Shown here piece after piece: positions 27,305 through 48,546 of a stretch of 64,000 nt of DNA (its first letter is position 1; the number at the start of each line of letters is the position of its first letter). Below the pieces are notes generated by a model. The model did no database searches. It was not told the DNA's origin and saw only the letters and a list, made by a program, of their open reading frames with translations. The DNA lies in the NCBI RefSeq assembly GCF_019599405.1, contig NZ_RKLQ01000006.1:62001-126000 (forward strand). The letters run 5' to 3'. This DNA comes from Haloarcula salinisoli (lineage in GTDB: Archaea > Halobacteriota > Halobacteria > Halobacteriales > Haloarculaceae). The position numbers were made by a program, and so were the translations under genes.

Positions 27305-28492
27305 ATGAGTGACCTCTCGTTTACGCCGACGTCGTCGATATTCGAGAAGCGTGAGGCGCTGCTGGAGGAGTGGACGCCCGAGGAACTCGTGGGACGTGAC
27401 AACGAACTCCAGCGGTATCACGCCGCATTGCAACCGGTGATCAACAACGAGAGTCCTTCCAACATCTTCCTCTATGGCAAGAGCGGCGTCGGAAAGACAG
27501 CCGCGACCCGGTATCTCCTCAACGCGCTCAAACGAGACGCCGCGGACGTTCCGGAACTCGACCTCCACACCATCGAGATAAACTGTGACGGGCTCAACTC
27601 GAGCTACCAGGCTGCAGTTGCGCTGGTCAACGAACTTCGTGACCCAGCAAAACAGATCTCGAACACCGGCTATCCCCAGGCGTCGGTGTACCAGTTTCTC
27701 TTCGAGGAACTCAACGACGCTGGCGGCACAGTGCTCATCGTCCTAGACGAAGTCGACCACATCCAGGATGACTCGCTCCTGTACAAGCTCCCACGGGCCC
27801 GTTCGAACGGCGACGTGACAGAGGCGAAACTCGGCGTCATCGGCATCTCTAATGACCTCGATTTCCGGAACCAACTCTCCTCGAAAGTCCGCTCCAGCCT
27901 CTGTGAGAAAGAGGTCTCCTTCTCTGCCTACGACGCTCAGGAACTCCAGCTCGTCCTCCAGCAGCGTGATTCGGTGGCGTTCAAAGATGGGGTCCTCGAC
28001 GACGGTGTCGTCCAGATGTGTGCTGCATACGGCGCCAAGGACTCGGGGGACGCCCGGCAAGCCCTCGACCTCCTGCTCGAAGCAGGTGACCTCGCGCGGG
28101 AGTACAACGACGACCTCGTCACCGAGGCCCACGTTCGCGAGGCTCGGCAGCGCCTCCAGACTGATCAGGTCGTCGAAGGCATCAGGAACTACTCCGACCA
28201 CGGCCAGCTCGTCCTGTACGCGTTGACGTTGCTGGCCGAGCGTGACGAAACGCCGGCCCGGACGAAGGACATCCTGGCGGCCTACCAGCAGGTGGCAAAC
28301 GAGAACGGGATGGATCCGGTCTCTCTGCGTTCTGTTCGGGACTATCTCGGCGAACTGGACCAGCTGGGTATCATCTCCTCGACGGAGTTCAACCGCGGCA
28401 AAGGCGGCGGCAAGTACAAAGAACACGAGTTAGAGCAGTCGGTTTCGTCCGTGAAGACAGGACTGTCCGAGATTCTCGACGCGACGCCCTGA
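27305..28492 (+). CDS. cdc6: Orc1/Cdc6 family replication initiator
   Basis: 395 residues. An AAA+ ATPase domain occupies residues ~20-270: Walker A GKSGVGKT at about 58-65, Walker B LIVLDEVDH near 143-151, and a sensor-2-type SGDARQALDLL near 245. A C-terminal winged-helix region ends at LDQLGIISSTEFNRGKGGGK. The protein binds origin boxes and recruits MCM. The gene is embedded in a repeat field: inverted boxes and an AT-rich element upstream, nine boxes downstream. This is therefore most likely the dedicated initiator of an active or formerly active origin. A TATA-like TATATAAATA lies about 75 bases upstream of the ATG. Confidence 0.93.
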   Translation: MSDLSFTPTSSIFEKREALLEEWTPEELVGRDNELQRYHAALQPVINNESPSNIFLYGKSGVGKTAATRYLLNALKRDAADVPELDLHTIEINCDGLNSSYQAAVALVNELRDPAKQISNTGYPQASVYQFLFEELNDAGGTVLIVLDEVDHIQDDSLLYKLPRARSNGDVTEAKLGVIGISNDLDFRNQLSSKVRSSLCEKEVSFSAYDAQELQLVLQQRDSVAFKDGVLDDGVVQMCAAYGAKDSGDARQALDLLLEAGDLAREYNDDLVTEAHVREARQRLQTDQVVEGIRNYSDHGQLVLYALTLLAERDETPARTKDILAAYQQVANENGMDPVSLRSVRDYLGELDQLGIISSTEFNRGKGGGKYKEHELEQSVSSVKTGLSEILDATP

Positions 28493-30102: not shown

Positions 30103-31050
30103 CTACAGGCGCGGCGACTGAGACTGGACGGTGTCGGAGACCTCGCTGACGACGCCGCCAAGTAGGACCAGCGCGTCGTCGAGGGTGACGATACCACGGA
30201 GCGCGCCGTTGTCGTCGACGATCGGGAGCCGCCGGATTCCCTCGTCGCTCATGACCTGGATAGCATCGAAGATGTTCATCGATGGGTCGGCCGTGAACAC
30301 GTCGCCGTGGAGCAGCTCCTCGGCCGTCCGCTGGGCGATGTCGGGCGTCTCCTCCAGCGCGAGGGCGACCTTCCGGTCGGTGATGATACCAATCGGGCGG
30401 TCATCTTCGACGACGACGACAGAGCCGACGTCGTTCTCGGCCATCTTTGCAACGACCGTTCGAACTGGCGTGTCTCGCTCCGCGGTGACGACGTCGTCGG
30501 TGATGATTTCGTTGACTCGGATGGGTTTCAGCAGCGGTCGCTGGGGGCCGCGCCCCTGGGGCTGACGTTGTGGCTGGGCCCCGGACGGCTGTCCGACCTG
30601 TGGCTGCCCGCCGGCGGCCCCCTGTGTGGGCTGTGCAGCCTGCATCTGCTGCTGTCCCATCGCCTGGGGCGGCTGTTGCTGGGACTGCTGGGGCGGCTGT
30701 GGTTGCTGGGCGAACTGTTGTGGCGGGGAGGCCCGCCCCTGCTGCATCGACTGTGGTTGGGGCTGTCCCTGTTGTGATGTCTGTCCTTGCTGGGCCCTCT
30801 GTGGTGTGGGTTGGCCCTGTCCCGTCGACGATGGTTGGGCCTGTTGCATCGACTGCGGTTGGCCCCGTCCTTGCTGGGCTGTCTGACCTTGCTGCGGTGT
30901 TGCTTGACCCTGTTGCATCGACTGGGGTGTTCCCTGTCCCTGTGCCGGCTGCTGGTATTGCTGTAGCGGCTGCTGGCCGGTCGGCTGGTACGGTGTCGAC
31001 TGTTCTCTCTCACGGTCATCTGCCGGTGTGTAATCGTGGTTTGGTGTCAT
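30103..31050 (-). CDS. CBS-pair protein with long Gln/Pro/Gly-rich N-terminal region
   Basis: 315 residues. Residues ~15-170 are low complexity, dominated by Gln with Pro, Gly, Ser and Met (SMQQGQ-type units). Residues ~180-310 form two CBS motifs: VVTAERDTPVRTVVAKMAEN with IGIITDRKVAL, and VFTADPSMNIFDAIQVMSDE with RGIVTLDDALVLLGG. CBS pairs sense adenine nucleotides. The tail is unusual for the family and is shared in character with several neighbours (Dps, the phasin-like protein and others), suggesting they assemble together. Cytoplasmic; no signal. Confidence 0.8.
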   Translation of the reverse strand: MTPNHDYTPADDREREQSTPYQPTGQQPLQQYQQPAQGQGTPQSMQQGQATPQQGQTAQQGRGQPQSMQQAQPSSTGQGQPTPQRAQQGQTSQQGQPQPQSMQQGRASPPQQFAQQPQPPQQSQQQPPQAMGQQQMQAAQPTQGAAGGQPQVGQPSGAQPQRQPQGRGPQRPLLKPIRVNEIITDDVVTAERDTPVRTVVAKMAENDVGSVVVVEDDRPIGIITDRKVALALEETPDIAQRTAEELLHGDVFTADPSMNIFDAIQVMSDEGIRRLPIVDDNGALRGIVTLDDALVLLGGVVSEVSDTVQSQSPRL

Positions 31051-31322
31051 AGTGATGTCTGCGCCCCGCTGCTAACTGCCAGCTGAACAGTTCACTCCAG
31101 TGTCAAATAAACCTTGTCGAGAGTCGGCTTCCGACGTCGCTCTTACCGAGAGCCAGTCCATATCAGTCCGATAACCCTTCGACCATACTTTACCGTCAGC
31201 GGCCCGTACTAGCTCGAAAAGGCAGTCCTACTCCCGGTAGCCGGGTGAAAACAGACGAATCGTCGAGCGATTTTATGTAATTCCGCCGGAAGCTACGACC
31301 ACAGGACCGGCGGGAGGACAGT

Positions 31323-31925
31323 ATGACATCTGACGACACTGACACAGGAGAGGGGAACGACGCTAACGCTGAGCGGACGGGGTCCAGTGAGCAAGAGTCG
31401 AGCGGCCCGCTGCGAGACCCGGAAACTGGAGAGTTCCTCTCGAAAGACGAACGACCGGACGAGGAATCGGAACCGACGACTGAAATGCGAGAAACGGAAC
31501 CCGAATCAATGGACGACGAGCACGACCAGGAGTCCGAATCGATGGACGAAGCACACGGATCGGACAGCGAACCACGCACAGGGGAAGTGGAAGACGAGGA
31601 AGTGGAAGACGAACCACAGATTGAGAGCACGGACGAGGCCGAACCGACAGATGCGTCAGAGAGCGAGCGGGAGACAGCGGATTCTGAAGCCACACCGGGT
31701 ATGCAAGCGACTGGGGCGTCGGCGAAGACGTCGGCAGCCGGCCCAGAGCAAGATCACGAACTGTCGACAGCCGGTAGTGCCGCCACCGCTCAGCAGTCGT
31801 CGCCAGGGACCGTCTTCGTCCCGAACCCGAACGGGTATCCGCGACTGCCAGCGACGTACCTGCCGACACTTCCGTGGCTCCGGCTCCCGTCCCGGGCCCC
31901 AGCATACGAAACGGTCTCGGTGTAA
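31323..31925 (+). CDS. Acidic, largely disordered hypothetical protein
   Basis: 200 residues, very rich in Glu, Asp, Ser and Thr through residue ~140 (phrases such as LRDPETGEFLSKDE and EVEDEEVEDE), then a Pro-rich hydrophobic C-terminus (VPNPNGYPRLPATYLPTLPW). No recognised family. The C-terminal segment looks like a conserved binding peptide. It is divergent from the CBS gene and upstream of Dps. Haloarchaeal composition supports a real gene. Confidence 0.6.
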   Translation: MTSDDTDTGEGNDANAERTGSSEQESSGPLRDPETGEFLSKDERPDEESEPTTEMRETEPESMDDEHDQESESMDEAHGSDSEPRTGEVEDEEVEDEPQIESTDEAEPTDASESERETADSEATPGMQATGASAKTSAAGPEQDHELSTAGSAATAQQSSPGTVFVPNPNGYPRLPATYLPTLPWLRLPSRAPAYETVSV

Positions 31926-32137
31926 CGGTCACGTCCTGCCGCCGGATTTTGGCCAGGGTGACACTGACAGCGACTCCCGGCACCGCAGCGCGGCCGAACG
32001 TAACAGGTAACCCACTGTGAAATAACGCTATCGAGGACGGAAATCCGACGGTCAGGGAGATGTCACTCGCCGAACCTATGTGACAATACACTAACCTTTT
32101 ACAGGGGTGCGCTCGTACTCCGGAACGAAGAGCCAGT

Positions 32138-32776
32138 ATGAGCCAGTCCCAACAGTCCATCCAGCAACAGCCGTCGACAGCGTCCAGGCCCACCGGCGCC
32201 GGGCAGTCACAGCCACCCAGCACGATGGGCGGCCAGCAGTTCCCAGTCCGGAGTAACCTCCCGGACGAGGTCCGGGCGACCAGCATCGACCTCCTGAATC
32301 AGACGCTGGCCGACCTCTCGGCGGTAACCATGCAGCTGAAACACGCCCACTGGAACGTGAAGGGAATCGAGTTCTACCAGCTCCACGAGCTGTTCGAGGA
32401 CCTCTACGAGGACTTCGAGCCACATATCGACGCTGTCGCAGAGCGGGCCAGCGCCCTGGGGGGTCGGCCGATTGGTACTGCCGGCGCCGTCGCCCAGCAG
32501 ACGACTATTCCCCCGTTGTCACACGACCGCGTCGACGGCCAATCGATGCTCCGGGAGGTCGCCGACAGACTGGCAGTCCTCGATGCCAACCTCTACCAGC
32601 ATATCGAGACCGCCAATCAGCAGGGGGACCTCGACACTGCCGACCTCCTCAACGAGGTGTCCCGTGACGTGACCAAAGCCCAGTGGTTCGTCGAATCACA
32701 TCTCCAGGTGCCACAGTCACAGGGTGGCCAACAGCGGGGTGCGCCACAGCAGGGTGCTCCCGCCCAGCAGCGGTAA
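32138..32776 (+). CDS. dps: Dps family DNA-protecting ferritin with Gln-rich termini
   Basis: 212 residues. The ferritin-like core (residues ~45-185) carries the Dps signature: KHAHWNVKG, YQLHELFEDLYEDF, and IDAVAERASALGGRPIG with ferroxidase-type His, Asp and Glu. Dps forms a 12-mer that oxidises iron with peroxide and protects DNA in stress. The first ~40 residues (Gln/Ser/Pro) and last ~25 (GGQQRGAPQQGAPAQQR) are Gln-rich extensions that differ from plain haloarchaeal DpsA and resemble the neighbours' tails. Start taken at the ATG at 32138. Confidence 0.87.
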   Translation: MSQSQQSIQQQPSTASRPTGAGQSQPPSTMGGQQFPVRSNLPDEVRATSIDLLNQTLADLSAVTMQLKHAHWNVKGIEFYQLHELFEDLYEDFEPHIDAVAERASALGGRPIGTAGAVAQQTTIPPLSHDRVDGQSMLREVADRLAVLDANLYQHIETANQQGDLDTADLLNEVSRDVTKAQWFVESHLQVPQSQGGQQRGAPQQGAPAQQR

Positions 32777-32889
32777 CAACTACTCGTGGGTGGCTGCCGG
32801 CGGTCGCCACCCAGCCTTCTGACCGACTCGTCCCCGAACCAAAATTGTCAAACAAACAGAGTTTTGGCGGCCCGGCCCGAATCAGGGGT

Positions 32890-33228
32890 ATGACTGGACG
32901 AGGCGAGCAACCCGAGCACGAAGCGGATGCGAAAGCGACCGAGAAGGCGACGGCGCTGTCGTTCGGCCAGGTCCTGTACGACGATGCGGGCCAGCCCGTC
33001 GGGAGCGTCCGAGGAATGGAGGCCGGCGGCATCTTTCTGACGACCCGGGACGGCGTCGAGTCGTTCAGTGTCGAGCACGTTCGCTCGGGCCACTCCTTCG
33101 GTCAGGCGGAGCTCATGTGGCGCTGTCTCGACTGCGGCGAGATGGGCGATATCGGCGATAGCCTCCCGGAGGCGTGCCCGAACTGCGGCGTCGAGCGGGA
33201 ACAACTGATGTACTGGACGGAGGACTGA
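32890..33228 (+). CDS. Haloarchaeal PRC-like/zinc-ribbon small protein
   Basis: 112 residues from the ATG at 32890. A small beta domain (GQVLYDDAGQPVGSVRGMEA...IFLTTRDGVESFSVEHV) is followed by a rubredoxin-like zinc ribbon (WRCLDCGEMG...CPNCGVERE) and the ending LMYWTED. The two CxxC knuckles are intact. I know the family from many haloarchaeal genomes without a function. It follows Dps by 113 bases on the same strand. Confidence 0.75.
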   Translation: MTGRGEQPEHEADAKATEKATALSFGQVLYDDAGQPVGSVRGMEAGGIFLTTRDGVESFSVEHVRSGHSFGQAELMWRCLDCGEMGDIGDSLPEACPNCGVEREQLMYWTED

Positions 33229-33390
33229 ACGGCCAGCTTCGCTGTTTTTGTCGAACTAGAGAGTCCGAGTAATCGATTACCGGTGGCCGAGGATAGAGAC
33301 CTTCACCACCCAATAGTCGACAACACCACACCGCCGTCCCGCTGGTCGCTGGACGGCGGAGCAAACGAGCGCCAGTCAGTCGAGTCCGGT

Positions 33391-33741
33391 TCAGCGGCCG
33401 TGCTGACCGGGGCCGCGGGGTGGTTGTTGCATCTGCTGTTGCTGTGCGAGTCCGCCTCCCTGCTGTGGCGGCGCTCCCTGTGGCGGCCCGCCGGCGCGAC
33501 CCTGCTCTGGGGCGCCGGTGGGCTGGGGGGCCTGCTGGACCATCTCGTCGGGGAGGACGAAGTGAAGTTCTGTGATGGGAACGAAGCCGTCGGCCTTTCG
33601 CTCCTCCTCTTCTTCTTCCTCTTCTTCCTCGCCGCCTTCAGCCGCTTGCTCCATTGCCCCCTGGAAGAACAGGACGCCGGAGTCGGTGGCCTGGAAGTCC
33701 TCACACTGTATCGTGGTTCCGTCTTTACAGATGATTTGCAC
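33391..33741 (-). CDS. Small beta-domain protein with poly-Glu and Gln-rich tail
   Basis: 116 residues from a GTG start; an upstream stop in frame excludes a longer form. Residues 1-30 (IICKDGTTIQCEDFQATDSGVLFFQG) look like a short beta fold, followed by a run of ten Glu, then the strand FVPITELHFVLPDE, and finally a Gln/Pro/Gly tail (QQAPQPTGAPEQGRAGGPPQ). The core recurs as a stand-alone haloarchaeal protein in my memory. Function unknown. The tail places it in the Gln-rich group. Confidence 0.65.
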   Translation of the reverse strand: MQIICKDGTTIQCEDFQATDSGVLFFQGAMEQAAEGGEEEEEEEEEERKADGFVPITELHFVLPDEMVQQAPQPTGAPEQGRAGGPPQGAPPQQGGGLAQQQQMQQPPRGPGQHGR

Positions 33742-33855
33742 GGTGAAACACCATCTACATTTTCATATGGCTGACAGATAAGTACTACCGAGCTAGTCCC
33801 GGTATCACCCGATTACTTCCGGACGGGACGGCGATACCGGGGAACGGGACCGTCC

Positions 33856-35052
33856 TCAGGCCTCGTCGACGGGGGCCTCTTCGCTGTCCGGCTCCTCCTC
33901 CTCGGAAACGTCACTCTTGATCGCTATCTGGCGTCGGGACTGCTGGGGCTCGTGATACGGAGCCGGCTGGGCCTGCTGTGCCGGCGGCTGCTGAATCTGC
34001 TGACCCGGGGGCTGCTGAGACTGTTGCGTCGGTGGCTCCTGCATTTGCTGACCTGGGGGCTGCTGAGACTGTTGCGTCGGTGGCTCCTGCATCTGCTGAC
34101 CCGGGGGCTGCTGAGACTGTTGCGTCGGTGGCTCCTGCATCTGCTGACCCGGGGGCTGCTGAGACTGTTGCGTCGGTGGCTCCTGCATCTGCTGACCCGG
34201 GGGCTGCTGGGGCGGCTGTCCCGGCGGCTGCTGGGACTGTTGCGTCGGTGGCTGCTGGGGCGGCTGTCCCGGCGGCTGCTGGGACTGCTGTGTCGGTGGC
34301 TGCTGTGGCGGCTGTCCCGGCGGCTGCTGGGATTGTTGCGTCGGAGGCTGCTGGGGCGGCTGTCCCGGCGGCTGCTGGGACTGCTGTGTTGGTGGCTGCT
34401 GGGGCGGCTGCTGGGACTGCTGTGTCGGTGGCTGTTGGGGCGGCTGTCCCGGCGGTTGCTGGCCCTGCTGTGTCGGCGGTTGCTGGCCCTGCTGTGTCGG
34501 TGGCTGCTGGCCCTGCTGTGTCGGAGGCTGCTGGGGCGGTTGCTGGCCCTGCTGTGTCGGAGGCTGCTGGGACTGCTGTCCCGGTGGCTGTTGTATCGGC
34601 GCCTGCGACTGCGGGCCAGCGGGTGGCTGCTGGCCGGCCGCTCCCTGCTGGCCCTGGACGCTGTTTCCGGGCGGGAACTGCTGTTGCCCCACCTGGAGCT
34701 GTTGTTGCCCGATGTCGCCGGCCTGCTGGAGTCCCTGCTCAGTCATCTGGGTGGCCTGCTCGATGCCCTGCTCGGTCATCTGGGCAGCGTTTTCGGCGGC
34801 ACTGTCGACCGTCTGGAAATACGTGTCCAGGGCCTCCCGTGTGAGCTCGGTGCTGCGGTTACCGAGCCAGCTGCTCATCTCCAGCCCGTTGAGGAATAGC
34901 TTCCCGGCGCTCTTCTGGAACTCGATGGACTGTTTCAGCGGGATTTCGACGGCCTGGTCCATGGCCTCCTGGCCGATCTCGAGGGCGTTTTGCTGCATCT
35001 CGATTGCGTTGCTCATCAGCTGATTTGTCTGTTGCATATCGGATTGACTCAT
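33856..35052 (-). CDS. Phasin-like helical protein with long QPP tandem repeats
   Basis: 398 residues from the ATG at 35052. Residues ~5-135 are amphipathic helix (MSNAIEMQQNALEIGQEAMD; IPLKQSIEFQKSAGKLFLNG; WLGNRSTELTREALDTYFQT), similar in character to phasins and other granule-coat proteins. Residues ~140-365 consist almost only of Gln, Pro and Gly in 16-residue units (QQPPGQPPQQPPTQQS and QQPPGQQMQEPPTQQS). The C-terminus is acidic (VSEEEEPDSEEAPVDEA). PHA-granule coating is possible, but no PHA genes are visible here. Membrane association cannot be excluded. Confidence 0.7.
   Translation of the reverse strand: MSQSDMQQTNQLMSNAIEMQQNALEIGQEAMDQAVEIPLKQSIEFQKSAGKLFLNGLEMSSWLGNRSTELTREALDTYFQTVDSAAENAAQMTEQGIEQATQMTEQGLQQAGDIGQQQLQVGQQQFPPGNSVQGQQGAAGQQPPAGPQSQAPIQQPPGQQSQQPPTQQGQQPPQQPPTQQGQQPPTQQGQQPPTQQGQQPPGQPPQQPPTQQSQQPPQQPPTQQSQQPPGQPPQQPPTQQSQQPPGQPPQQPPTQQSQQPPGQPPQQPPTQQSQQPPGQPPQQPPGQQMQEPPTQQSQQPPGQQMQEPPTQQSQQPPGQQMQEPPTQQSQQPPGQQMQEPPTQQSQQPPGQQIQQPPAQQAQPAPYHEPQQSRRQIAIKSDVSEEEEPDSEEAPVDEA
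34017..34448 (-). repeat. 48-bp tandem repeat (VNTR) inside the phasin-like gene
   Basis: Four nearly identical 48-base units (34017-34208) encode QQPPGQQMQEPPTQQS; a second variant encoding QQPPGQPPQQPPTQQS fills the next ~240 bases with occasional 12-base deletions. High identity at silent positions points to recent expansion by slippage or unequal recombination. Confidence 0.8.
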
Positions 35053-35354
35053 AGTGTATTGTGAGGCGTAGTCGACGCTCGCTGTGCACACAGGTCGGGC
35101 CGCGCCCGAGGGCGGATCGAGACCGTGGCCGTCCGTGGTTCACCGGCCAGTACCCGGCGACGCGCTACACCTCGGTAGTGTGCATCGGGGAGGATGGCGG
35201 TGGCAGTAATAAACCGAAGACACTGTTCAGGCAGTAAGCGTCAATCCCCACCACGATGGCAGCGCAGATACTGAGGTTCGGGCCATATACTTCTGACATT
35301 GCTATCGCTGACGGTCACCAGGTGAGTTGACGGAAGAATCCCCTTACGGCCGTC

Positions 35355-35702
35355 TCACCGGGTCGGTCGGGTGGGCTGCTGTGGCGGCACGATAGCTATC
35401 TGCCCGTCGCTGTAGACGGTCACCGTGTGATTCCAGACAGTGAACGTGAGGTTTCCGTTGAAACGCCGCTCGGCGTCCGCTGCGGGTTTGAATAGGGCAT
35501 CGAGCGCGTCGGGGTCGATGTAGTCATACAGTGTAAAGCCCGTATCGGTGACGTCGACGCCGCTGATGTCCGATAGCGCGTGAGCGAGCGTCGTCGTGAG
35601 TTCCGCAGGTCCGTCGAAATCGTGTTTGATGTAGTACGTCCCTGAATTTTGGACCGTGTGCTGCTGGGGAGTTTGTTTCGCGTGTGCCTCGTTACGATAC
35701 AT
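35355..35702 (-). CDS. HalOD1 (halobacterial output domain 1) protein
   Basis: 115 residues from the ATG at 35702. Residues ~20-100 carry the HalOD1 pattern: YYIKHDFDGPAELTTTLAHA, TLYDYIDPDALDALF, then FTVWNHTVTVYSDGQIAI. The domain is common in haloarchaea as an output module of signalling proteins or alone. The last residues (PPQQPTRPTR) are Pro/Gln-rich like its neighbours. No partner kinase is adjacent. The ~300 bases upstream (35053-35354) hold nothing recognised. Confidence 0.78.
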   Translation of the reverse strand: MYRNEAHAKQTPQQHTVQNSGTYYIKHDFDGPAELTTTLAHALSDISGVDVTDTGFTLYDYIDPDALDALFKPAADAERRFNGNLTFTVWNHTVTVYSDGQIAIVPPQQPTRPTR

Positions 35703-35907
35703 TGGTTGTGACACTCTCACATTGCCTTCGGGGTAATAAAAGCTTTCCCCTCAGCTTACCCCTTTGTTCCGGGCAAAAAACGCAAGACAACGGCCGAACC
35801 GATTCGGCCAAGACGGCGTCACTACGACCGCTCCGTCACGGGTAATACAGACCTATGCCGATTTGAACCGGTAAACGCCGGGGTCCACCTGGCTCACAGT
35901 CGCATCC

Positions 35908-37260
35908 TTACTCGGACTCGGGGCCCATTCGTAGGACGACCTGGTCGTCTTCGACGCGTTCGATGTGGTCGGTGTCCAGCAGGTAGCTGTCCTCGTCGTC
36001 GTGGTCGCTCCATCCCAGCACCGTCCTGATGCGGTCGGTTATCGACGGGTGTGGGTTGACGTGCATCTGCCCGTTATCGACGTCGACGACCATCCCGACC
36101 TCCTCGCCGTCGGGATTGACGACCGTCTTCCCCTCGTCTTCCTCCTGTGGCGTGACCCTGACAGCTTCGTCAGCTGCCGTCGGTTCGGCCATCTCGTCGT
36201 CCTCGGTCACCGAACCGCCAGCTGCCGGTTCCCCGGCAGCTGGTTCTGTGTCGGTCTCTGCCGCGGCGACGGTCGCCGCGAGGTCGACGTCGTACTCGTC
36301 CTGTTCGACGATTTCGCTACCGACGACGGTGTGGGAGATGGCGTCGGTGCTGACTGTCTCGGCATCGGAGACCTCTCCGAGTATCCGCTTGTCGACCCGC
36401 ATCTCCTCGTCGATGGTCTGGCGCCGCAGCAGGTTCGTCTCGATGACGTCGTCCTCACGGAACTGGCTCTCGACGCGGCCGTGTTCGACTGCCTGGGCTG
36501 CCGTCTCCGGTGACTCGACGAGTTCACCTTTCAGTACAGTTTCCGTGACGCCATCGATGTCGACCGTGTCACGCATCGTATCGCTCTCGACGGTCTCTGT
36601 CTCCTCGACGTCGGTCTCGACAACCTGGCTCTCGATGGTGATGCGCTCGACGACGTCCCGGGTGACCTCCCACAGCTCGTCGACGTCTATCTCCACCTCG
36701 TATGGGTCGGACAGATTCGTCCCCGGCTGGAACCACGACAGGTCTGTGGTCGACTCGTCCGGCGGCTCGGCCCGTGTCACAGAGCACTGTTCCACGTCTG
36801 TCGACAGCAGGGCCACGTCGACGATGTCGCTCTGGATAATCTCGCGACCCGCAATTTCGCTCTGGACGGTCGCCTCCTCGACGACGACGTGCTCGACGAC
36901 GCGCCGTTCGGTTATCTCGCTCTCGACGGTCTCGCCCTCCATCAGCGCCTCCTCGACGGCCTCGCTCTCGACAGTGGCGCGGCCGATGACCTCCGAGCGG
37001 TCGACCACGTCGATGTCTGTCGTCGAGTCACCGCCCCGAACAACGATCAATCCCTGGTCTCGGAGCTCGCGTTCGAACTCCGTCCAGTCCATCTCCTCGT
37101 GGTCCGTGTGCATCTCGTCCTCGGGCACGACATCCAGCCGGGGGTCTTCCCCGCCTTCCCGACGGACCGGCACCAGTTTCTGTGTCCCAGCCCACGATTG
37201 AATCGTCTCCGCGTCTGCGGATACCTGACTCTCAGAGTGTGTGTTGCTATCTCGTGACAT
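35908..37260 (-). CDS. Acidic pentad-repeat solenoid protein with C-terminal PRC-barrel
   Basis: 450 residues from the ATG at 37260. After an N-terminal region (VPVRREGGEDPRLDVVPEDE) residues ~95-330 show a five-residue rhythm: pentads such as TVESE, AVEEA, TVESE, ITERR, VVEHV, TVQSE, IAGRE, IIQSD. Each has hydrophobic residues at two positions and acidic or polar ones elsewhere. This resembles a pentapeptide-repeat quadrilateral beta-helix, though its consensus differs from the classical A(D/N)Lxx. Residues ~375-450 form a PRC-barrel (GKTVVNPDGEEVGMVVDVDN...YLLDTDHIERVEDDQVVLRM). The protein family recurs in haloarchaea without function. DNA mimicry or scaffolding is speculation. Confidence 0.68.
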   Translation of the reverse strand: MSRDSNTHSESQVSADAETIQSWAGTQKLVPVRREGGEDPRLDVVPEDEMHTDHEEMDWTEFERELRDQGLIVVRGGDSTTDIDVVDRSEVIGRATVESEAVEEALMEGETVESEITERRVVEHVVVEEATVQSEIAGREIIQSDIVDVALLSTDVEQCSVTRAEPPDESTTDLSWFQPGTNLSDPYEVEIDVDELWEVTRDVVERITIESQVVETDVEETETVESDTMRDTVDIDGVTETVLKGELVESPETAAQAVEHGRVESQFREDDVIETNLLRRQTIDEEMRVDKRILGEVSDAETVSTDAISHTVVGSEIVEQDEYDVDLAATVAAAETDTEPAAGEPAAGGSVTEDDEMAEPTAADEAVRVTPQEEDEGKTVVNPDGEEVGMVVDVDNGQMHVNPHPSITDRIRTVLGWSDHDDEDSYLLDTDHIERVEDDQVVLRMGPESE

Positions 37261-37323
37261 CGAAACACTCTTCGGTCTTCTGACGTTTAAGCCCCCGGAC
37301 ACATTCTCTCGGTAATAGGCGTA

Positions 37324-37643
37324 TTAACGACGTTGGAGCCCGATATGGACGGTCTTACTGAGAGTCGGACTCCCAGTCGAGTGTCGGAACTGGTCGATGT
37401 TGTCTCGCGCGACCGAGAGCTTCCGCTGGACGACACTGTCGGCGTGGTCGCCGAGTTTCACGAGCTGGTGTTCCAGCTGTTTGAGGCGGTCGCCCTCCCG
37501 AATATCATCGTCGAGGGTCTCCTCGCCGCGAGTCCGGAACGCGCATGGACGATGAACTGGCACTGCTCGTGGACGGTCGGGTCGTCGGGCCGCTCGCTGG
37601 CTGTCTGGACCGCATCGCGGGCGATAGCGAGCCGTGATGCCAT
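37324..37643 (-). pseudogene. Frameshifted small helical haloarchaeal protein
   Basis: Two overlapping minus frames together read as one small coiled-coil protein. The ATG at 37643 begins MASRLAIARDAVQTASERPD, up to about 37540. The continuation EGDRLKQLEHQLVKLGDHAD and VQRKLSVARDNIDQFRHSTG lies in another frame down to the stop at 37324. Joined, they resemble the common haloarchaeal family of ~90-residue helical proteins that start with M-x-R-x-x-x-A-R-D-A-V. A single indel near 37530-37545 (real or a sequencing error) would explain this. Confidence 0.5.
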
Positions 37644-37866
37644 CCGAACTGTAGGCGGTCCGGACGGAAACAGATGAGGGTCCACCCCCGGACTGGAGGT
37701 ATGTGGGTGGAGCCCTGCCCGGGAGAATCCTGATTCGGGAAATTAACACCAACATTATTGTGAAGCGCAGCGAGCTTCCGATTCACTCGGTGGGTCGGAG
37801 GAACGTCTCGCGTGTGTCCGGAGAGCGACGACACGGGGGCCAGCGCAGAGTGGTGGGCCCTGCCTC

Positions 37867-39189
37867 TCAGTCGTCGTCCGCTGTCGCCCCATCCCCGGTC
37901 TCGTCGTCCGGCACTTCCCGCATCTCGTCGAGCGTGTTCACCACCAGTGCGGCGGAGATACCGTGCACCAGGAGTGAGGCGAGGACGATAAAACCCAGGA
38001 GCGCCCACAGTTCCTCCGCGGCCACGATGAGTTCGTACTCCCTGAGCGACGCCGAATTGAGCGCGTAAGCGAGGTAAAAAAACGACCCGATACCCCTGAT
38101 CCCGAACGCTGCGATGACGGCTCGCTCGGCGAACAACTGGTCGGTCCCGACACTCGCGAGCAGGCCCGCGATAGGCCTGACAACGAGGAGTATCACGAGC
38201 CCGACGGCCACGTAGGCCGGCGTCAGCGGCGCGAGCAACCCCTGTACCAGCACGCCGCCGAATAACACGAGCACGGTCGCCATCAGCAATCGCTCCACCA
38301 GCACTGCGAAGTCGTGGAGCTTCTCGTAGTAGGCGTGCTCCCACTCGTAATGTCGCAGTGTCAGGGCGGCGACGAACACCGCGATGAACCCGTAGCCGGC
38401 GACCAGTTCCGTGGCCGCGTACGCGAACAGGGTCGCGGCCAGCGCCTCCGCGCCCTCCATCACGCGGGAGAGCTGGCTGCTCGATGGCCGACCGAAGATG
38501 AACCGCGCGATGAGGTAGCCGACCACGGCCCCGCCGATGATACCGACGCCGATCTTGTAGATGACGTAGAACCCGATCCACTCGACCAGCCACCCGCTCC
38601 GCGAGAGGTCCAGACTCTCGCCGGCCATCAGGATAGCAAGGTACGTAAAGGGGAAGGCGAGTCCGTCGTTCAACCCCGCTTCGGAGGTGAGCGCGAACCG
38701 AATCTCACCCTCCTGGTCTGTGGGGTCTATCTCTTCGTCGACGCTGGAGGCTGGCGGCGTGGCTTCGACCGAGGACGCAAGCACCGGGTCAGTGGGTGAG
38801 ACCACGGCCCCCAGCAGGACCGCGACCGGGAGGCTGAGGCCGAGGACGCCCCACCCGAGCACGCTGACGGCGAGGATAGTCAGCGGCATGGTGAGGGCGA
38901 GCAACCGCCAGGTCGGCGACCAGCCCTGCCAGTCGAAGGGTCGGTCGAGCTTCAGCCCGGCTCCCATCAGCGAGATGATGATGACGAACTCCGTCAGCCG
39001 CCTTGTCGCGTTCGGCTGCGAGACCGGGTCTGGGACTGTGACGCCGGTCGGCAGCGCGAAGACGAGCGCTCCGAGACCGACGTAGAGCAGGGGGAACGAC
39101 ATCGGTTTGTCCGCCAGCACTCGCGGTAACACGACGGCACCCAGTATCGCGATACTCGTCACCAAGAGCGCGATCTCGTAGGCCGCCAT
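37867..39189 (-). CDS. Cation:proton antiporter (CPA1/NhaP-like)
   Basis: 440 residues with about 13 membrane helices. Family motifs: GAVVSPTDPVLASS (the unwound helix) and SEAGLNDGLAFPF with the Asn-Asp ion-binding pair of electroneutral CPA1 antiporters. It exchanges Na+ or K+ for H+ across the cytoplasmic membrane, central to haloarchaeal ion balance. The C-terminus ends in a short acidic tail with no large regulatory domain. Start at the ATG at 39189, just before the first helix. It lies within the stress-type island. Confidence 0.88.
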   Translation of the reverse strand: MAAYEIALLVTSIAILGAVVLPRVLADKPMSFPLLYVGLGALVFALPTGVTVPDPVSQPNATRRLTEFVIIISLMGAGLKLDRPFDWQGWSPTWRLLALTMPLTILAVSVLGWGVLGLSLPVAVLLGAVVSPTDPVLASSVEATPPASSVDEEIDPTDQEGEIRFALTSEAGLNDGLAFPFTYLAILMAGESLDLSRSGWLVEWIGFYVIYKIGVGIIGGAVVGYLIARFIFGRPSSSQLSRVMEGAEALAATLFAYAATELVAGYGFIAVFVAALTLRHYEWEHAYYEKLHDFAVLVERLLMATVLVLFGGVLVQGLLAPLTPAYVAVGLVILLVVRPIAGLLASVGTDQLFAERAVIAAFGIRGIGSFFYLAYALNSASLREYELIVAAEELWALLGFIVLASLLVHGISAALVVNTLDEMREVPDDETGDGATADDD

Positions 39190-39246
39190 GGCTAGAGTAC
39201 CGCGCCCCGTCGGAAGGTAGTTGTGCCGCTGTGAGGCGATTGTGGG

Positions 39247-39480
39247 TTACGATTCAGGTTCAACCCCACCGTGGCGCAACTGGCCCTCCTCGCTTCCGGA
39301 GTCCGACCCGGGCTCTGCCTCCCAGCTCTCCGGGTCGATGTCCAGGTCTGTCTCCACGACGCCCCGGTCGGTCCCGGAGCCGATGGTGAAGGGCCCGGCG
39401 GCGAGTGTTCGCAGCGTGCTGGGCGCCGCCCACCCGAACTCGCCCGCCTCGCTCGTCTGTGTCACTAGCAGGTCGCTCAT
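39247..39480 (-). CDS. Small acidic hypothetical protein
   Basis: 77 residues with haloarchaeal acidic composition (VVETDLDIDPESWEAEPGSD; SGSEEGQLRHGG) and a conserved-looking N-terminus (MSDLLVTQTSEAGEFGWAAP). Two other frames are open here but are Arg-rich. No family recognised. It lies between the antiporter and the DAO-Rieske gene; the ~150 bases after its start toward 39633 show no other gene. Confidence 0.5.
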   Translation of the reverse strand: MSDLLVTQTSEAGEFGWAAPSTLRTLAAGPFTIGSGTDRGVVETDLDIDPESWEAEPGSDSGSEEGQLRHGGVEPES

Positions 39481-39633
39481 CGTGTCCCGCCATTCGTCGA
39501 GTGGGCGTGAGAACCCACTGCCAGCAGTTGCAAGGGCCGCTGCGGGCAGAGCTGCCGAGACAGCCAGCGCCCCTGCCGTTGCCAGCAGCAGCTTGAATCC
39601 ACGCCGGCGCGTCTACTCGCTGCTTCTCACACC

Positions 39634-41184
39634 ATGGACGACTCCCTCTCGCCTCCCGACCTACCCGAAGGGAGGCACGAATCCGTCTGGTTCCCGACGT
39701 CGGACCGGACCGACTACGACCCGCTCGACGGCGACCGTTCTGTCGATACCGCCGTCGTTGGCGGCGGTATCGCGGGTATCACGACCGCCGCCAAACTCGA
39801 TGCGGCCGGCCAGACCGTCGCCATCCTGGAGCGGGACCGCATCCTCGACGGCACGACCGGACACACGACGGCGAAGGTCACGTCCCTCCACGGCCTCGTC
39901 TACGACACACTCATCGAGAATTTCGGCGCCGAGAACGCCCGGCAGTACGCCGCGGCCAACCAGGCGGCCGTCGACGACATCGCCGCAACGGTCGACCGCC
40001 GGGATATCGACTGTGGCTTCGGTCGGGCACCGGCCTACACCTACGCGAAAAGCGACGAGGATCGCTCCAAGGTACGGTCGGAGGTCAACGCCGCCCGGCG
40101 ACTCGGCCTCCCGGCGTCGTACGTCGAGGAGACCGAGCTGCCCTACGAGGTCGACTCGGCGGTGCGGTTCGACGAGCAGGCGTATTTCCATCCGCGCCAG
40201 TACCTGCTGGAACTCGCCAGCGACGTCGCGGCGGGTGACGGCGCCGTCTTCGAGGAGACGACCGTCGAAGGCGTCGAGGACGGCACGCCCTGTCGCGTCG
40301 AGACCGACCGCGGGACCGTCAGGGCCGACGACGTCGTCGTCGCCTCCCACTTTCCCGTCGCGGACGACGCGCTGTACTTCTCGCGGCTCCGCCCGAAACG
40401 CTCGTACGTGGTCGCGGCCCGCCTCGATGGGGAGCCTCCCGACGGCCTCTACTACCACGCCGGCGAGCCCTACTTCTCGGTGCGGCCCCACGCCACGAAC
40501 GACGCACTGGTCCTGCTGGGCGGACAGAACCACCGCACCGGACACGGGGACAGCACCGAAGAGCGCTACCGGCGTCTCGAACAGCAGGTCCGCGAGCGCT
40601 TCGACGTGGCGTCCATCGCGTACCGCTGGGCGACCCAGGACTACGTCTCGGTGGACCAGGTTCCGTTCGTCGGGAAAGCGGCGCCACAGGTCTCGAACGT
40701 CTACGTGGCCACCGGGTTCGGCGGCTGGGGGATGACAAACGGGACGGCCGCAGGGCGGCTGCTGGCCGACGAGATTCTGGGCCGACCGTCGGCCACACGC
40801 GACGTTTTCGACCCCAACCGGTTCAAGCCCCTCGCCTCGAAGTCCGAGCTTCTCTCCCACAACACCGAGACGGTGAGACACTACATCGAGGACTATCTGG
40901 GGAGCCAGCCGTCCCTCGATACCGTCGACCTCGACCCTGGCGATGCCGGCGTCTACGAGGTCGACGACGACCCGCTCGCGGTGTATCGCGACGACGACGG
41001 CGAGATTCACGCCCGCTCGGCCGTCTGTCCACACAAGGGCTGTCTCGTTGCCTGGAACGACGGCGAGCGGTCCTGGGACTGCCCGTGTCACGGGTCCCGC
41101 TTCGGGGTCGACGGCGAGGTACTCGATACACCGGCCGTTCACGGCCTCGACGACGTCTCGCTCCAGGACGGCCCCGATTCCTGA
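39634..41184 (+). CDS. FAD-dependent oxidoreductase (DAO family) with C-terminal Rieske domain
   Basis: 516 residues. Residues ~35-385 form a DAO-type FAD domain: VVGGGIAGITTAAKL for the dinucleotide, LERDRILDGTTGHTTAKVT near the flavin, and VYVATGFGGWGMTNGTAAG at the C-terminal flavin site. Residues ~430-505 are a Rieske [2Fe-2S] domain with CPHKGC and CPCHGS, both Cys-His pairs intact. This fusion architecture is known (related to YhfW/glycine-oxidase-like proteins). The substrate is unknown; an electron-transferring amine or sarcosine-type oxidation is possible. No signal peptide. Confidence 0.87.
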   Translation: MDDSLSPPDLPEGRHESVWFPTSDRTDYDPLDGDRSVDTAVVGGGIAGITTAAKLDAAGQTVAILERDRILDGTTGHTTAKVTSLHGLVYDTLIENFGAENARQYAAANQAAVDDIAATVDRRDIDCGFGRAPAYTYAKSDEDRSKVRSEVNAARRLGLPASYVEETELPYEVDSAVRFDEQAYFHPRQYLLELASDVAAGDGAVFEETTVEGVEDGTPCRVETDRGTVRADDVVVASHFPVADDALYFSRLRPKRSYVVAARLDGEPPDGLYYHAGEPYFSVRPHATNDALVLLGGQNHRTGHGDSTEERYRRLEQQVRERFDVASIAYRWATQDYVSVDQVPFVGKAAPQVSNVYVATGFGGWGMTNGTAAGRLLADEILGRPSATRDVFDPNRFKPLASKSELLSHNTETVRHYIEDYLGSQPSLDTVDLDPGDAGVYEVDDDPLAVYRDDDGEIHARSAVCPHKGCLVAWNDGERSWDCPCHGSRFGVDGEVLDTPAVHGLDDVSLQDGPDS

Positions 41185-41366
41185 CTGCGGCAGCCGGAGT
41201 CGCAGTGTATCCCTGACCGATAGCACGCAAAAAGTGCGGGCACGTCACCCGCCCCTCGCAGGCTCCGCGTGGAATCGAGGCGGCCCTCGCTGTCGGCTAC
41301 GTCCCGTCCGCCCACCGGTACCCACATGGCGAGGGCGGCCGGGTCGATGGGTCGAAAGTGAACCGC

Positions 41367-42167
41367 TCAGTACTGCTCGGACTGCTCAGACTGCTGCTCC
41401 TGAGGTCGCTGCTGGAGCTGGAGTGCGCCCTGCTGCTGCTGGGGCTGCTGGGTCGGTGACTGCTGTTGGCCGAACTGCTGTCCTGGCTGCTGGCTTTGCT
41501 GCTGGGGCTGCTGCTGGTACTGCTGACTCTGTGGCTGCTGCTGGAACTGCTGGGAGGGGAGCTGACTCTGTGGCTGCTGTTGGCGTCCCTGCTGGGGCTG
41601 TTGCTGGAGCTGCTGGGATGGCTGTTGTTGTCCGAACTGCTGGGAGGGTTGTTGGCCAGTCTGTTGCTGGGGCTGCTGGCCCTGGGGTTGCCTTGAGGAC
41701 TGCTGGCCCATCTGCTGGGACGGCTGTCGGCTCTGTGACTGCTGCTGCCCTGGCTGCTGGCTCGGTGACTGCTGTTGCCCGAACTGCTGTCTCTGCTGCT
41801 GGGGCTGCTGTTGGTGCTGGCTCTGGGGCTGCTGGCTCTGTGGTTGCTGTTGACTCTGCTGTTGCTGGGGCTGCTGCTGCTGGAACTGCTGTGTGGGGAG
41901 CTGACTCTGTGGCTGCTGTTGACGACCCTGCTGGGGCTGGCGCTGCTGTTGTCCCAGCTGCTGGGAGGGCTGCTGACTCTGTTGTTGCTGGGGCTGACGC
42001 TGTGGCTGTTGGGACTTCTGACCGAACTGTCCGCTCTGCCCGCCAAAGAGGGAGCTCTCTCCGAAACTGTGCTCCCCTGTGAGACCGTGACTCTGCTGAC
42101 CGTACTGCGGTGTGTTCTGCTGACCCTGCTGTTGCTGCCCTTGCTGCTGATTTTCTTGATATGTCAT
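41367..42167 (-). CDS. Gln-rich low-complexity protein
   Basis: 266 residues of which well over half are Gln, mixed with Ser, Pro, Gly and occasional Phe, Leu or Arg. Only residues ~25-55 (YGQQSHGLTGEHSFGESSLF) are moderately complex. No folded domain is evident. Composition resembles prion-like or phase-separating regions. Similar Gln-rich tails occur on five other proteins within 13 kb. The frame is chosen because the alternative frames give Ser/Arg- or Ala/Thr-rich products unlike haloarchaeal proteins and because a proper ATG is present. Low-complexity DNA makes the call less than certain. Confidence 0.6.
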   Translation of the reverse strand: MTYQENQQQGQQQQGQQNTPQYGQQSHGLTGEHSFGESSLFGGQSGQFGQKSQQPQRQPQQQQSQQPSQQLGQQQRQPQQGRQQQPQSQLPTQQFQQQQPQQQQSQQQPQSQQPQSQHQQQPQQQRQQFGQQQSPSQQPGQQQSQSRQPSQQMGQQSSRQPQGQQPQQQTGQQPSQQFGQQQPSQQLQQQPQQGRQQQPQSQLPSQQFQQQPQSQQYQQQPQQQSQQPGQQFGQQQSPTQQPQQQQGALQLQQRPQEQQSEQSEQY

Positions 42168-42179
42168 GGTTCAATGGGT

Positions 42180-42571
42180 GGGTGCGGCGTTGACGACCCG
42201 ACGGGGCCGTCCCGAGTAACCCGATTGCCTCGCCGGATTGTGCGACGCTGTGAGAGGGGCCGGTCCCGTCGACGTCTCGCCGCTGCTCCCGTCAGAGGGA
42301 TTGACCGGCCCTGATAAACCCGTTGCGACAGTTCAGGTGCGTATACGGCCACTACCGGCTGCAAGAAGGCGCTACTCGGCGGTTTTCGGTTTTACAGATT
42401 TCGTCTCTCTGCTCGGCGTTTGCCCATCCCTCGGCACCGGCCGTTCTGGGTCCGTTCTCGACCACGGTGACGACCAGCGGCCGACTGCGTGGGCGTGGCC
42501 TTCTGGAAAAAAATCGGACGTTCCCGGAGTAGTGTTGGCGGTGTCTGGACACTCCGCGACCGTACGGGAGC
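42180..42571. other. Intergenic stretch between two Gln-rich genes
   Basis: About 390 bases. Open frames on both strands here are Arg/Ser-rich and not acidic. No clear promoter or hairpin was noticed beyond an A-run at about 42508-42514. Confidence 0.4.
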
Positions 42572-43048
42572 TTACTGCGAGAACTGTTGGGTCTGCCCGC
42601 CGCCGAACTGCTGGCCCTGGCTACCCTGCCCGGAGAGCTGACGGGCGAACTGGGCCGACTGTGGCAACACGGCGGCACACTCCTGACAGTGTGAGTGCTG
42701 GTGCTTTCCACACTCCTGTGCACAGGCCTGTGCGGCACGCTCGAAAGTCTGGACGAGCTCCGATGTGAACCGAGAGGAGCGGGGTCCGAGTGCGAGGACA
42801 GTCTCGCCGATCTCTACGACGTCCTCACACAGCTTGATGCACTCTGTCATGTTCGGGTCCGCCTCCTCGATGCACTTGTCGGCACACCAGCCACACACCT
42901 CGACGGCCTGTGCGACCGCGCCGAGGCTCTGTCTGTACTGCTGTGGGAGCCGTCCGGCGTCCTGTTGCTGGGCGCCGCCCTGCTGTTGCTGGTGGTGCTG
43001 TGGCTGCTGGGCTGTCTGACCGCTGGGGTACTGTGATTCCTGAGACAT
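42572..43048 (-). CDS. Cys-rich four-helix-bundle (Csp/DUF326-like) protein with Gln-rich ends
   Basis: 158 residues. The core (residues ~38-130) has the Cys pattern of four-helix-bundle copper-storage/DUF326 proteins: CGWCADKC, then TECIKLCEDVVEIG, then CAQECGKHQHSHCQECA. The Cys/His residues would line the bundle and bind Cu(I). The N-terminal ~35 residues and C-terminal ~25 are Gln-rich, an addition not usual for Csp. A role in copper buffering is family-based inference; no CopA or copper regulator is adjacent. Confidence 0.8.
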   Translation of the reverse strand: MSQESQYPSGQTAQQPQHHQQQQGGAQQQDAGRLPQQYRQSLGAVAQAVEVCGWCADKCIEEADPNMTECIKLCEDVVEIGETVLALGPRSSRFTSELVQTFERAAQACAQECGKHQHSHCQECAAVLPQSAQFARQLSGQGSQGQQFGGGQTQQFSQ

Positions 43049-47878: not shown

Positions 47879-48502
47879 ATGACTGACGGCAATCGGATGG
47901 CTGTCACCGGGGAGGCGAGCTGTGCGTGCAAGATCGGTCGAACGGCCGAGACGTACGGGATTGACGATATCGACGGACTGCTTCGCGACCGGCGGGCAGA
48001 GGGCGCGAGTCTCCGCCGTCTGGAGACCGTCGTGAACGAGGCCGTCCTTCGGGCGGCCCTCGAAGAAACTGGCACCCACGTGCCAGGGGATGTCACAGAT
48101 ATCTACCGGACCCTGACCGACGGGGAGACGAGCGCGGGCGTGCGGACGGAGACACGGGCGTGGTTATCACGGGTCGGTGTCGACCCAGACGACCTCGAGG
48201 GCGACTTCGTCTCCTATCAGACCGTTCGCACCCATCTCCGGGAGTGTCTCGACGTCGACACCACCCGTGAGAGCACACTGTCAGTCGACGACGCAGTGGG
48301 GACCATCGAGTGGGCACGCTCCCGGAGCGAAGGTATCGTTCGCCGGACCGTCGAACGACTCGACGAAACTGATGGGTTCCACACCGGCACCGTGGACGTG
48401 ACACACGTCGTCCGGGTCTCCTGTGGGGACTGTGGGGCCAGCTATCCAGTCGAGCGGTTTCTCGACCGGGGCGGGTGCGACTGTGGCGGCGCTGACCAGT
48501 GA
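47879..48502 (+). CDS. rdfA: Rod-determining factor RdfA homologue
   Basis: 207 residues. The RdfA pattern is clear: CKIGRTAETYGIDDIDGLL, LRRLETVVNEAVLRAALEET, DVTDIYRTLTDG and VDPDDLEGDFVSYQTVRTHLRECL. A C-terminal zinc ribbon (CGDCGASYPVERFL...CDCG) ends the protein. In Haloferax volcanii RdfA is needed for rod-shaped cells; its biochemical role is unknown to me. The next gene, an archaea-specific SMC-related protein, starts 44 bases later behind a GAGGAG ribosome-binding site, so the pair is an operon, an arrangement I recall from other haloarchaea. Confidence 0.85.
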   Translation: MTDGNRMAVTGEASCACKIGRTAETYGIDDIDGLLRDRRAEGASLRRLETVVNEAVLRAALEETGTHVPGDVTDIYRTLTDGETSAGVRTETRAWLSRVGVDPDDLEGDFVSYQTVRTHLRECLDVDTTRESTLSVDDAVGTIEWARSRSEGIVRRTVERLDETDGFHTGTVDVTHVVRVSCGDCGASYPVERFLDRGGCDCGGADQ

Positions 48503-48546
48503 GGCGACCAACAACGAGTTATGTGCTCGGTTTGAGGAGCTAAATA

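Follow-up and report, generated by a model that had tools for sequence, protein, structure and literature searches.

Unrelated protein domains that share Gln-rich tails in a conserved, mostly plasmid-borne haloarchaeal gene set: a candidate intracellular assembly

The DNA analysed here (the window, the whole stretch of 64,000 nucleotides at positions 62001-126000 of the 179,831-base contig C6 of Haloarcula salinisoli, genome G000) contains a 13-kb region, 30103-43048, in which five proteins with unrelated domains carry the same type of neutral Gln/Pro/Gly-rich tail and a sixth consists almost entirely of such sequence. The tails are restricted to these members and are retained in relatives, which supports the view, drawn from sequence comparisons, that they are a selected, shared trait and suggests that they may act as a shared assembly tag. 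In total, we suggest that the region is a copy of a conserved, mostly plasmid-borne gene set in which tailed oligomers and a Gln-rich scaffold would form one intracellular assembly, a proposal that we believe and doubt in about equal measure. The six genes are:

30103-31050, minus strand: CBS-pair protein; N-terminal Gln/Pro-rich tail of ~170 aa followed by a pair of CBS domains (PF00571, two stretches, 87.5 bits)
32138-32776, plus strand: Dps, bacterial type, with Gln-rich tails at both ends (PF00210, 97 bits; NF006975, 146.8 bits)
33391-33741, minus strand: small domain of unassigned fold (MQIICKDGTT..VLPDE) with an acidic stretch and a Gln-rich C-tail; 5/5 tailed
33856-35052, minus strand: phasin-like helical domain of ~100 aa, a long Gln/Pro tail of 48-bp repeats and an acidic C-terminus; profile match to haloarchaeal PhaP
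41367-42167, minus strand: nearly pure Gln-rich protein, putative scaffold; codon-position pattern, composition-matched ORFs on 12/13 contigs
42572-43048, minus strand: Csp-like four-helix-bundle protein with 9 Cys and Gln-rich tails at both ends (phmmer to Csp3 5fig, E 2.6e-7)

Six tailed proteins in a Gln-poor genome

All six open reading frames (ORFs) that an initial annotation had placed within 30103-43048 are present there, and the ORFs, their composition and the genome background confirm its claim that Gln/Pro/Gly-rich segments are combined with different domains. The tails are charge-poor, and Gln makes up 21.0% of the CBS-pair protein, 13.7% of Dps, 16.4% of the small-domain protein, 32.1% of the phasin-like protein, 52.6% of the Gln-rich protein (in which D+E amount to 2.3%) and 20.9% of the Csp-like protein. 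For comparison, 526 genes sampled from 31 stretches of this genome (613 kb) average 2.8% Gln. Only one of these genes, L158:9675-10139, prefoldin-like by eye, reaches a Gln content of 12% or more, or 10 or more Gln within 30 residues, and so the further remark that the shared tail type is striking also holds; three of the 31 stretches had been picked for holding the Gln pattern, a bias that works against the claim. Because the simple custom script used to call genes overlooks some Gln-rich ones, e.g. 41367-42167, all ORFs of at least 80 aa were counted as well, and 1/2604 holds 10 or more Gln within 30 residues. A codon pattern for QQxQQ has 76 matches genome-wide, of which 34 fall inside these 13 kb; the other 42 are dispersed except for four at the prefoldin-like gene. 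Matches inside repeats depend on one another, and these counts are given without a binomial P. With 14 genes assumed, the P for six of them being tailed is 1.4e-13 at a rate of 1/526 and 3.8e-9 when the rate is set to its upper bound.

For 44 proteins from five families (Csp left out), tail stretches selected by Gln content have 36.6% Q, 12.3% P, 11.7% G, 1.4% D and 3.8% E; D and E stand at 8.0% each in the sampled proteome. One survey (PMC11132505) reports that Q-rich domains have a uniquely high occupancy in eukaryotes relative to bacteria and archaea, with many archaea showing an enrichment of D-rich classes.

Conservation of the tails and of the cluster

Among named records the nearest is CP119786, a 247.6-kb plasmid of Haloarcula rara SHR3, which is 86.4% identical over 98% of the 13-kb region. 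In H. rara and in G008 the gene order is the same, inverted in G008, and all six tails are present; the antiporter was not found in the G008 cluster. Full-length identities, tails included, are 61-99% for H. rara and 32-99% for G008, lowest for the acidic protein at 31323 and highest for Cdc6. Searches made mostly with tail-free domains, together with the surroundings fetched around the matches, place clusters, often partial, on 13 haloarchaeal contigs: the window's own and those of H. rara, G008, H. marina, G025, G173, G307, G126, Halorientalis sp. IM1011, G292 (another family code), Halobaculum halophilum, H. salinum and H. sp. XH14. Every one of the six named records (Haloarcula, Halorientalis, Halobaculum) is a plasmid. 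Comparing co-occurrence and order across haloarchaea, as had been proposed, shows the order kept in H. rara and G008 and clusters, often incomplete, on 13 contigs.

With a tail defined as at least 9 Gln in 30 residues, 41 of the 42 proteins of five families on the 13 contigs are tailed, the window's five included (CBS 12/12, Dps 6/7, phasin-like 10/10, Csp-like 8/8, small-domain 5/5); the sole exception is the Dps of G126, with 7 Gln per 30. The initial annotation had named the absence of tails from syntenic orthologues as the result that would overturn its proposal. Outside the window, 36 of 37 proteins keep the tail, and the proposal survives this comparison. Domain identities to the window's proteins range from 36 to 95%, and tails are still kept at the 36-56% of the most distant contigs; in Halobaculum the position of the tail is conserved in CBS (50-54% identity, three plasmids) and in Dps (46%, one plasmid). 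Gln-rich ORFs outside these families (at least 15 Gln in 30) occur on 12/13 contigs; as they were counted by composition and not by homology, some may be non-homologous, and in G173 the 388-aa ORF is possibly a false frame. The interleaved neighbour families are untailed in 53 of 53 cases (six families chosen by us: HalOD1 12, DUF7130 11, acetyltransferase 10, MscS-like 9, FAD-Rieske 8 and antiporter 3, with the acidic protein, the repeat protein and regulators left out); HalOD1 is found on 12/13 and DUF7130 on 11/13 contigs.

In a class sample of 292 genomes, eight genomes have a phasin match scoring 45 bits or more and nine a Csp match scoring 75 bits or more, both thresholds having been set after the lists had been seen; six genomes have both, each pair on one contig. 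High-scoring Csp therefore occurs in 6/8 phasin carriers and 3/284 other genomes (Fisher P 2.8e-9, uncorrected for kinship), and from these counts the set is rare, being present in ~2-3% of the sampled species.

Several observations concern the records themselves. The cluster of G025 (L150, contig C1) lies on a 2.2-Mb contig, and the 20 kb read there holds the phasin-like, small-domain and Gln-rich genes; CBS, Dps and Csp are absent from these 20 kb. On the Halorientalis sp. IM1011 plasmid, the public annotation begins the CBS gene after its tail (L176:13043-13585), and only part of the Gln-rich ORF (L176:21548-22471) is annotated, a gene being placed on the opposite strand. Gln-rich tails may be under-reported in databases.

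Reading frames and selection on the tails

An excess of third-position differences supports all six reading frames, with confirmation from DNA-level alignments to H. rara for three genes. Third-position differences number 49 vs 29 and 20 in the Gln-rich gene, 89 vs 47 and 35 in the phasin-like gene, and 61 vs 20 and 21 in the CBS gene; all 8 of 8 gaps in the Gln-rich gene are multiples of three, and 2/7 in the phasin-like gene are not. The codon-position pattern rules out that the Gln-rich protein is a false frame, and its start (MxYQxNQQQGQQ) and end (GxLQLxQR..QY) are conserved in close relatives. For the phasin-like gene a start at 35052, an ATG conserved in relatives, is likelier than one at 35091.

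The ratio of nonsynonymous to synonymous substitution (dN/dS) in the tails is 0.11-0.39 in 11 comparisons, values that are biased low, the codons having been aligned by protein and the sequences being repetitive. The tail codons look selected, with signs of purifying selection, and slippage alone is for this reason unlikely to account for them. Slippage in a GC-rich plasmid, expanding CAG/CAA codons neutrally, would fit the 48-bp tandem repeats of the phasin-like gene and the differences in tail length between species. We disfavor this explanation and regard it as very improbable, given that the tail is kept in 41/42 proteins, other genera and families included, that CAG and CAA are mixed and dN/dS is low, and that tails are absent from the examined relatives outside the cluster and very rare elsewhere in the genome.

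A phasin-like member and a possible link to polyhydroxyalkanoate granules

The window's phasin-like protein has no Pfam or NCBIfam match. A profile comparison of ten cluster-type domains (A3) with four PhaP-like sequences (A4) identifies the domain as homologous to haloarchaeal PhaP (hhalign probability 99.1, E 1.1e-18, 73 columns). Among the four PhaP-like genes, L153 and the genome's own L236 adjoin a polyhydroxyalkanoate (PHA) synthase confirmed by NCBIfam or homology, L149 adjoins one by eye only, and L154 does not adjoin one. In H. salinisoli, contig C2 carries phaC together with a PhaP of its own that has no tail, and the tailed phasin-like protein is encoded on C6, away from phaC. By its homology to PhaP, and because a separate PhaP adjoins phaC, we class the cluster protein as a paralogue of the granule protein rather than as the main phasin. 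In a list of 30 phasin matches, the best eight (L062-L069) have 19.8-32.1% Gln and 11-17 Gln in 30 residues, and the other 22 have 4.6-14.2% and 5-11.

The phasin homology and the link to PHA granules to which it possibly leads are new in this analysis. A special case of our proposal is that the assembly is a PHA-granule coat, in which the phasin-like protein would bind polyester granules and recruit the other tailed proteins. The PhaP homology favors such a coat, as do PHA synthase matches over the full length (E at most 1e-140) in 47/60 relatives, the own genome included; bacterial phasins, some of them tetrameric, bridge granule and nucleoid, according to one report (PMC5658603). Three points argue against it: the homology spans ~73 columns only; the cluster is unlinked to phaC, which has a PhaP of its own without a tail; and PHA synthase is too common in the genus to discriminate. 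Full-length matches occur in 30/32 genomes of the genus, so co-occurrence is uninformative there, and matches of any quality occur in 57/60 genomes, 10 of them weak (E 1e-4 to 1e-9, mostly to a short C-terminal part). On balance we regard the granule coat as rather unlikely in this specific form, and the granule location as putative.

Loss of cysteines in the Csp-like member

The Csp-like protein is homologous to the four-helix bundle of Csp3 (5fig), and scores 42.9 bits against TIGR04401, below the cut-off of 100. In a tree of 63 rows and 100 domain columns, built from the best-matching loci first rather than from all matches and after removal of L022 (an untailed, degenerate-looking sequence with 8 Cys), 20 tailed rows and L197, whose weak tail we counted as untailed, are separated by a branch with support 100/98 from the other 42, none of which is tailed. 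The tailed rows have 4-9 Cys and L197 has 9, compared with 13-19 in the other 42 rows, and the most diverged tailed proteins, among them Halorussus proteins, have 4-5. This low-Cys tailed group, like the phasin homology, adds to the initial annotation.

With 9 Cys in its domain, as opposed to 13-17 in the untailed haloarchaeal tree rows except L197, the window's protein is doubtful as a site of the metal storage proposed in the initial annotation, and copper storage, considered as its function, is weakened by the Cys loss throughout the tailed group. The loss fits a structural role, and we infer that the bundle may have been turned to structural use.

As a separate observation, a C-terminal aromatic residue (-QQY, -QSY, -QGF) ends 14/21 tailed Csp proteins, L197 included here, none of 43 untailed ones, L022 included, and 7/11 Gln-rich proteins, compared with 31/526 in the background. 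A common C-terminal tag on tailed Csp and Gln-rich proteins is possible; the counts ignore kinship.

CBS, Dps and small-domain members

The other CBS matches in the own genome are untailed in 9/9 cases, with at most 5 Gln per 30 residues, and none of the 25 NCBIfam matches listed for the CBS pair is to a specific family at a score above its cut-off. Nucleotide sensing, as originally proposed, is suggested by the CBS domains and by nothing else in the set.

Dps scores above the cut-offs of PF00210 (97 vs 24.5 bits) and NF006975 (146.8 vs 114 bits) and below that of haloarchaeal DpsA, NF041388 (86 bits, cut-off 170), and is therefore of the bacterial type. Compared with 3ge4 and 1o9r, the aligned H, H, D and E positions, which we take to be the ferroxidase (metal-site) ligands, are kept, and one further Asp is Glu. 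All three cluster loci are tailed and 27/27 others untailed among 30 loci shown of a longer list from 60 genomes. In E. coli Dps a Lys-bearing N-terminal tail binds DNA, a property not general to all Dps; the Gln-rich N-tail of the window's Dps is without Lys. The DNA protection proposed for this protein is thus plausible from its fold and its aligned residues, but Lys is absent from the tails.

The small domain at 33391-33741 has no Pfam or NCBIfam match, and its description as a beta domain was not confirmed, the predicted model having a mean predicted local distance difference test (pLDDT) score of 49.5. PDB profile searches with the phasin-like and small domains returned nothing meaningful. 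Of four distant homologues of the small domain elsewhere, L225:8427-8789 and L227:8617-9039 have a Gln-rich C-tail, and L226 and L228 stay below 9 Gln in 30.

A model for tail-dependent assembly

Combining these data, we suggest that (i) Dps, the Csp-like bundle, the phasin-like coil, the CBS pair and the small domain have each been fitted with the same neutral Gln/Pro/Gly-rich tail, (ii) with one or two sticky tails per chain, oligomers would present many tails and so be multivalent, and (iii) the near-pure Gln protein, acting as scaffold, and the tails would probably gather the set into a condensate or granule coat, possibly on PHA granules via the phasin-like domain. Dps proteins are 12-mers and CBS proteins dimers, and multivalent oligomers with a tail-only scaffold are a standard recipe for a condensate or coat; the window's proteins would presumably have such oligomeric states. 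The haloarchaeal cytoplasm is at molar salt, which would screen charge and make uncharged tails a plausible adhesive. High-salt condensation has been described for FUS and other proteins in two reports (PMC7889641; PMC13269793). Taken together with the salty cytoplasm of haloarchaea, this makes the idea physically reasonable, though not proven. The co-assembly into a granule or condensate put forward in the initial annotation is what we also infer from the sequences, as we do a role in stress.

Several findings weigh against a single assembly. The members are not always together: the CBS member is found on 12, the phasin-like on 10, Csp on 8, Dps on 7 and the small domain on 5 of 13 contigs, counts that hold within the fetched stretches, so that missing members may lie outside; Halobaculum XH14 shows the CBS member only. 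Tailed Csp genes stand alone at six loci (L218, L219, L221, L240, L241, L242) and the tailed phasin-like gene L148, which belongs to the eight best phasin matches, is without another tailed gene (20 kb read at each), from which it follows that the tail can serve without the set. Gln counts do not sharply separate phasin matches, five of the 22 lower ones reaching 9-11 Gln in 30; the tail counts given above omit CBS homologues of ~41% identity on other plasmids; and the low bias of the tail dN/dS belongs here as well. Aromatic residues are common stickers, and they are few in the tails (F 1.3%, Y 1.1%). Finally, upstream alignments inspected by eye contain no shared promoter motif, the conserved blocks being gene-specific.

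Alternatively, each tail may act on its own protein, as a solubility bristle, spacer or hydration layer in high salt, without mutual assembly. The neutral, low-complexity character of the tails is compatible with such a function, and the lone tailed Csp and phasin-like genes speak for it. Against it, the interleaved neighbors, exposed to the same salt, are untailed (0/53), the tail is common to five families in one cluster and a Gln-rich ORF without a recognized domain is found on 12/13 contigs; we consider it unlikely.

A bolder form of the assembly proposal is that the cluster is a plasmid-transferable archaeal organelle kit, in which a compositional address tag on at least five unrelated multivalent proteins, together with a tail-only scaffold, would produce a condensate in high salt, one coating or bridging PHA granules and the nucleoid, with the copper-storage bundle serving as a structural cross-linker that has lost its metal sites. 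We offer this form tentatively and with more doubt than conviction.

Neighbouring genes

Untailed genes interleaved with the six include:

31323-31925, plus strand: acidic protein with an RDPETGEF motif and a conserved C-terminus, without a Gln tail; orthologues in L031 and L034
32683-33228, plus strand: DUF7130/rubredoxin-like protein (PF23458, 133 bits); untailed common neighbor, start probably near 32818
35355-35702, minus strand: HalOD1-domain protein (PF18545, 75.6 bits); untailed common neighbor
35908-37302, minus strand: acidic repeat protein with a C-terminal end that is PRC-barrel-like by eye; untailed neighbor with orthologues

The acidic repeat protein (VESE..VE pattern) has no Pfam match, and its model has a mean pLDDT of 41.6 and is good only at residues ~381-460, the C-terminal end; it is conserved in Haloarcula clusters, with more distant relatives elsewhere. 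By eye, a motif RDPxTGxF is common to the acidic protein at 31323-31925 and to the Gln-rich proteins L034:565-1437, L222:4027-4749 and L224:10430-11395. Two genes lie beside the cluster at 47879-50436, one SMC-related and one resembling the rod-determining factor RdfA. Haloarcula marina has both under these annotations, and by eye they are similar in the window and G025. On the other side, the Orc1/Cdc6-like protein at 27305-28492 is ~99% identical in four Haloarcula genomes (G008 read in part), and the genes next to it are ~60-96% identical; either recent exchange or strong constraint would explain this near-identity.

Comparison with known systems

We recognized no description of this gene set in the literature, a weak negative as it covers open-licence PMC papers only. 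If the model is correct, the set would be a natural, genetically tractable example of a shared low-complexity "address" in archaea with a molar-salt cytoplasm and otherwise acidic proteins. It would make testable whether neutral Gln-rich tails can drive specific assembly where electrostatics are screened, and the Csp-like member would be a clean candidate for a repurposed metal-storage fold.

Three of the members differ from known relatives as follows. The Dps shares with its family a score above cut-off and the aligned metal-site residues, and differs in its Gln-rich tails without Lys; the same genome has a second Dps match on contig C1. The phasin-like protein shares the homologous N-terminal helical domain of haloarchaeal PhaP, but it is not encoded beside phaC and a long Gln/Pro tail replaces the C-terminal part of PhaP. 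Known Csp proteins have a Cys-rich core that binds 13 Cu in Csp1 and up to 20 in Csp3, and form tetramers, according to PMC7558416. The window's protein has the homologous bundle with fewer Cys (9, and 4 in the most diverged tailed relatives, compared with 13-19 in the 42 untailed rows), Gln tails at both ends and a score below the TIGR04401 cut-off.

As a whole, the set resembles stress granules and FUS-type condensates in that proteins with different domains share one type of tail and are accompanied by a scaffold-like protein. The putative assembly differs from them in being archaeal and plasmid-borne and in having few aromatics and a molar-salt cytoplasm as its setting.

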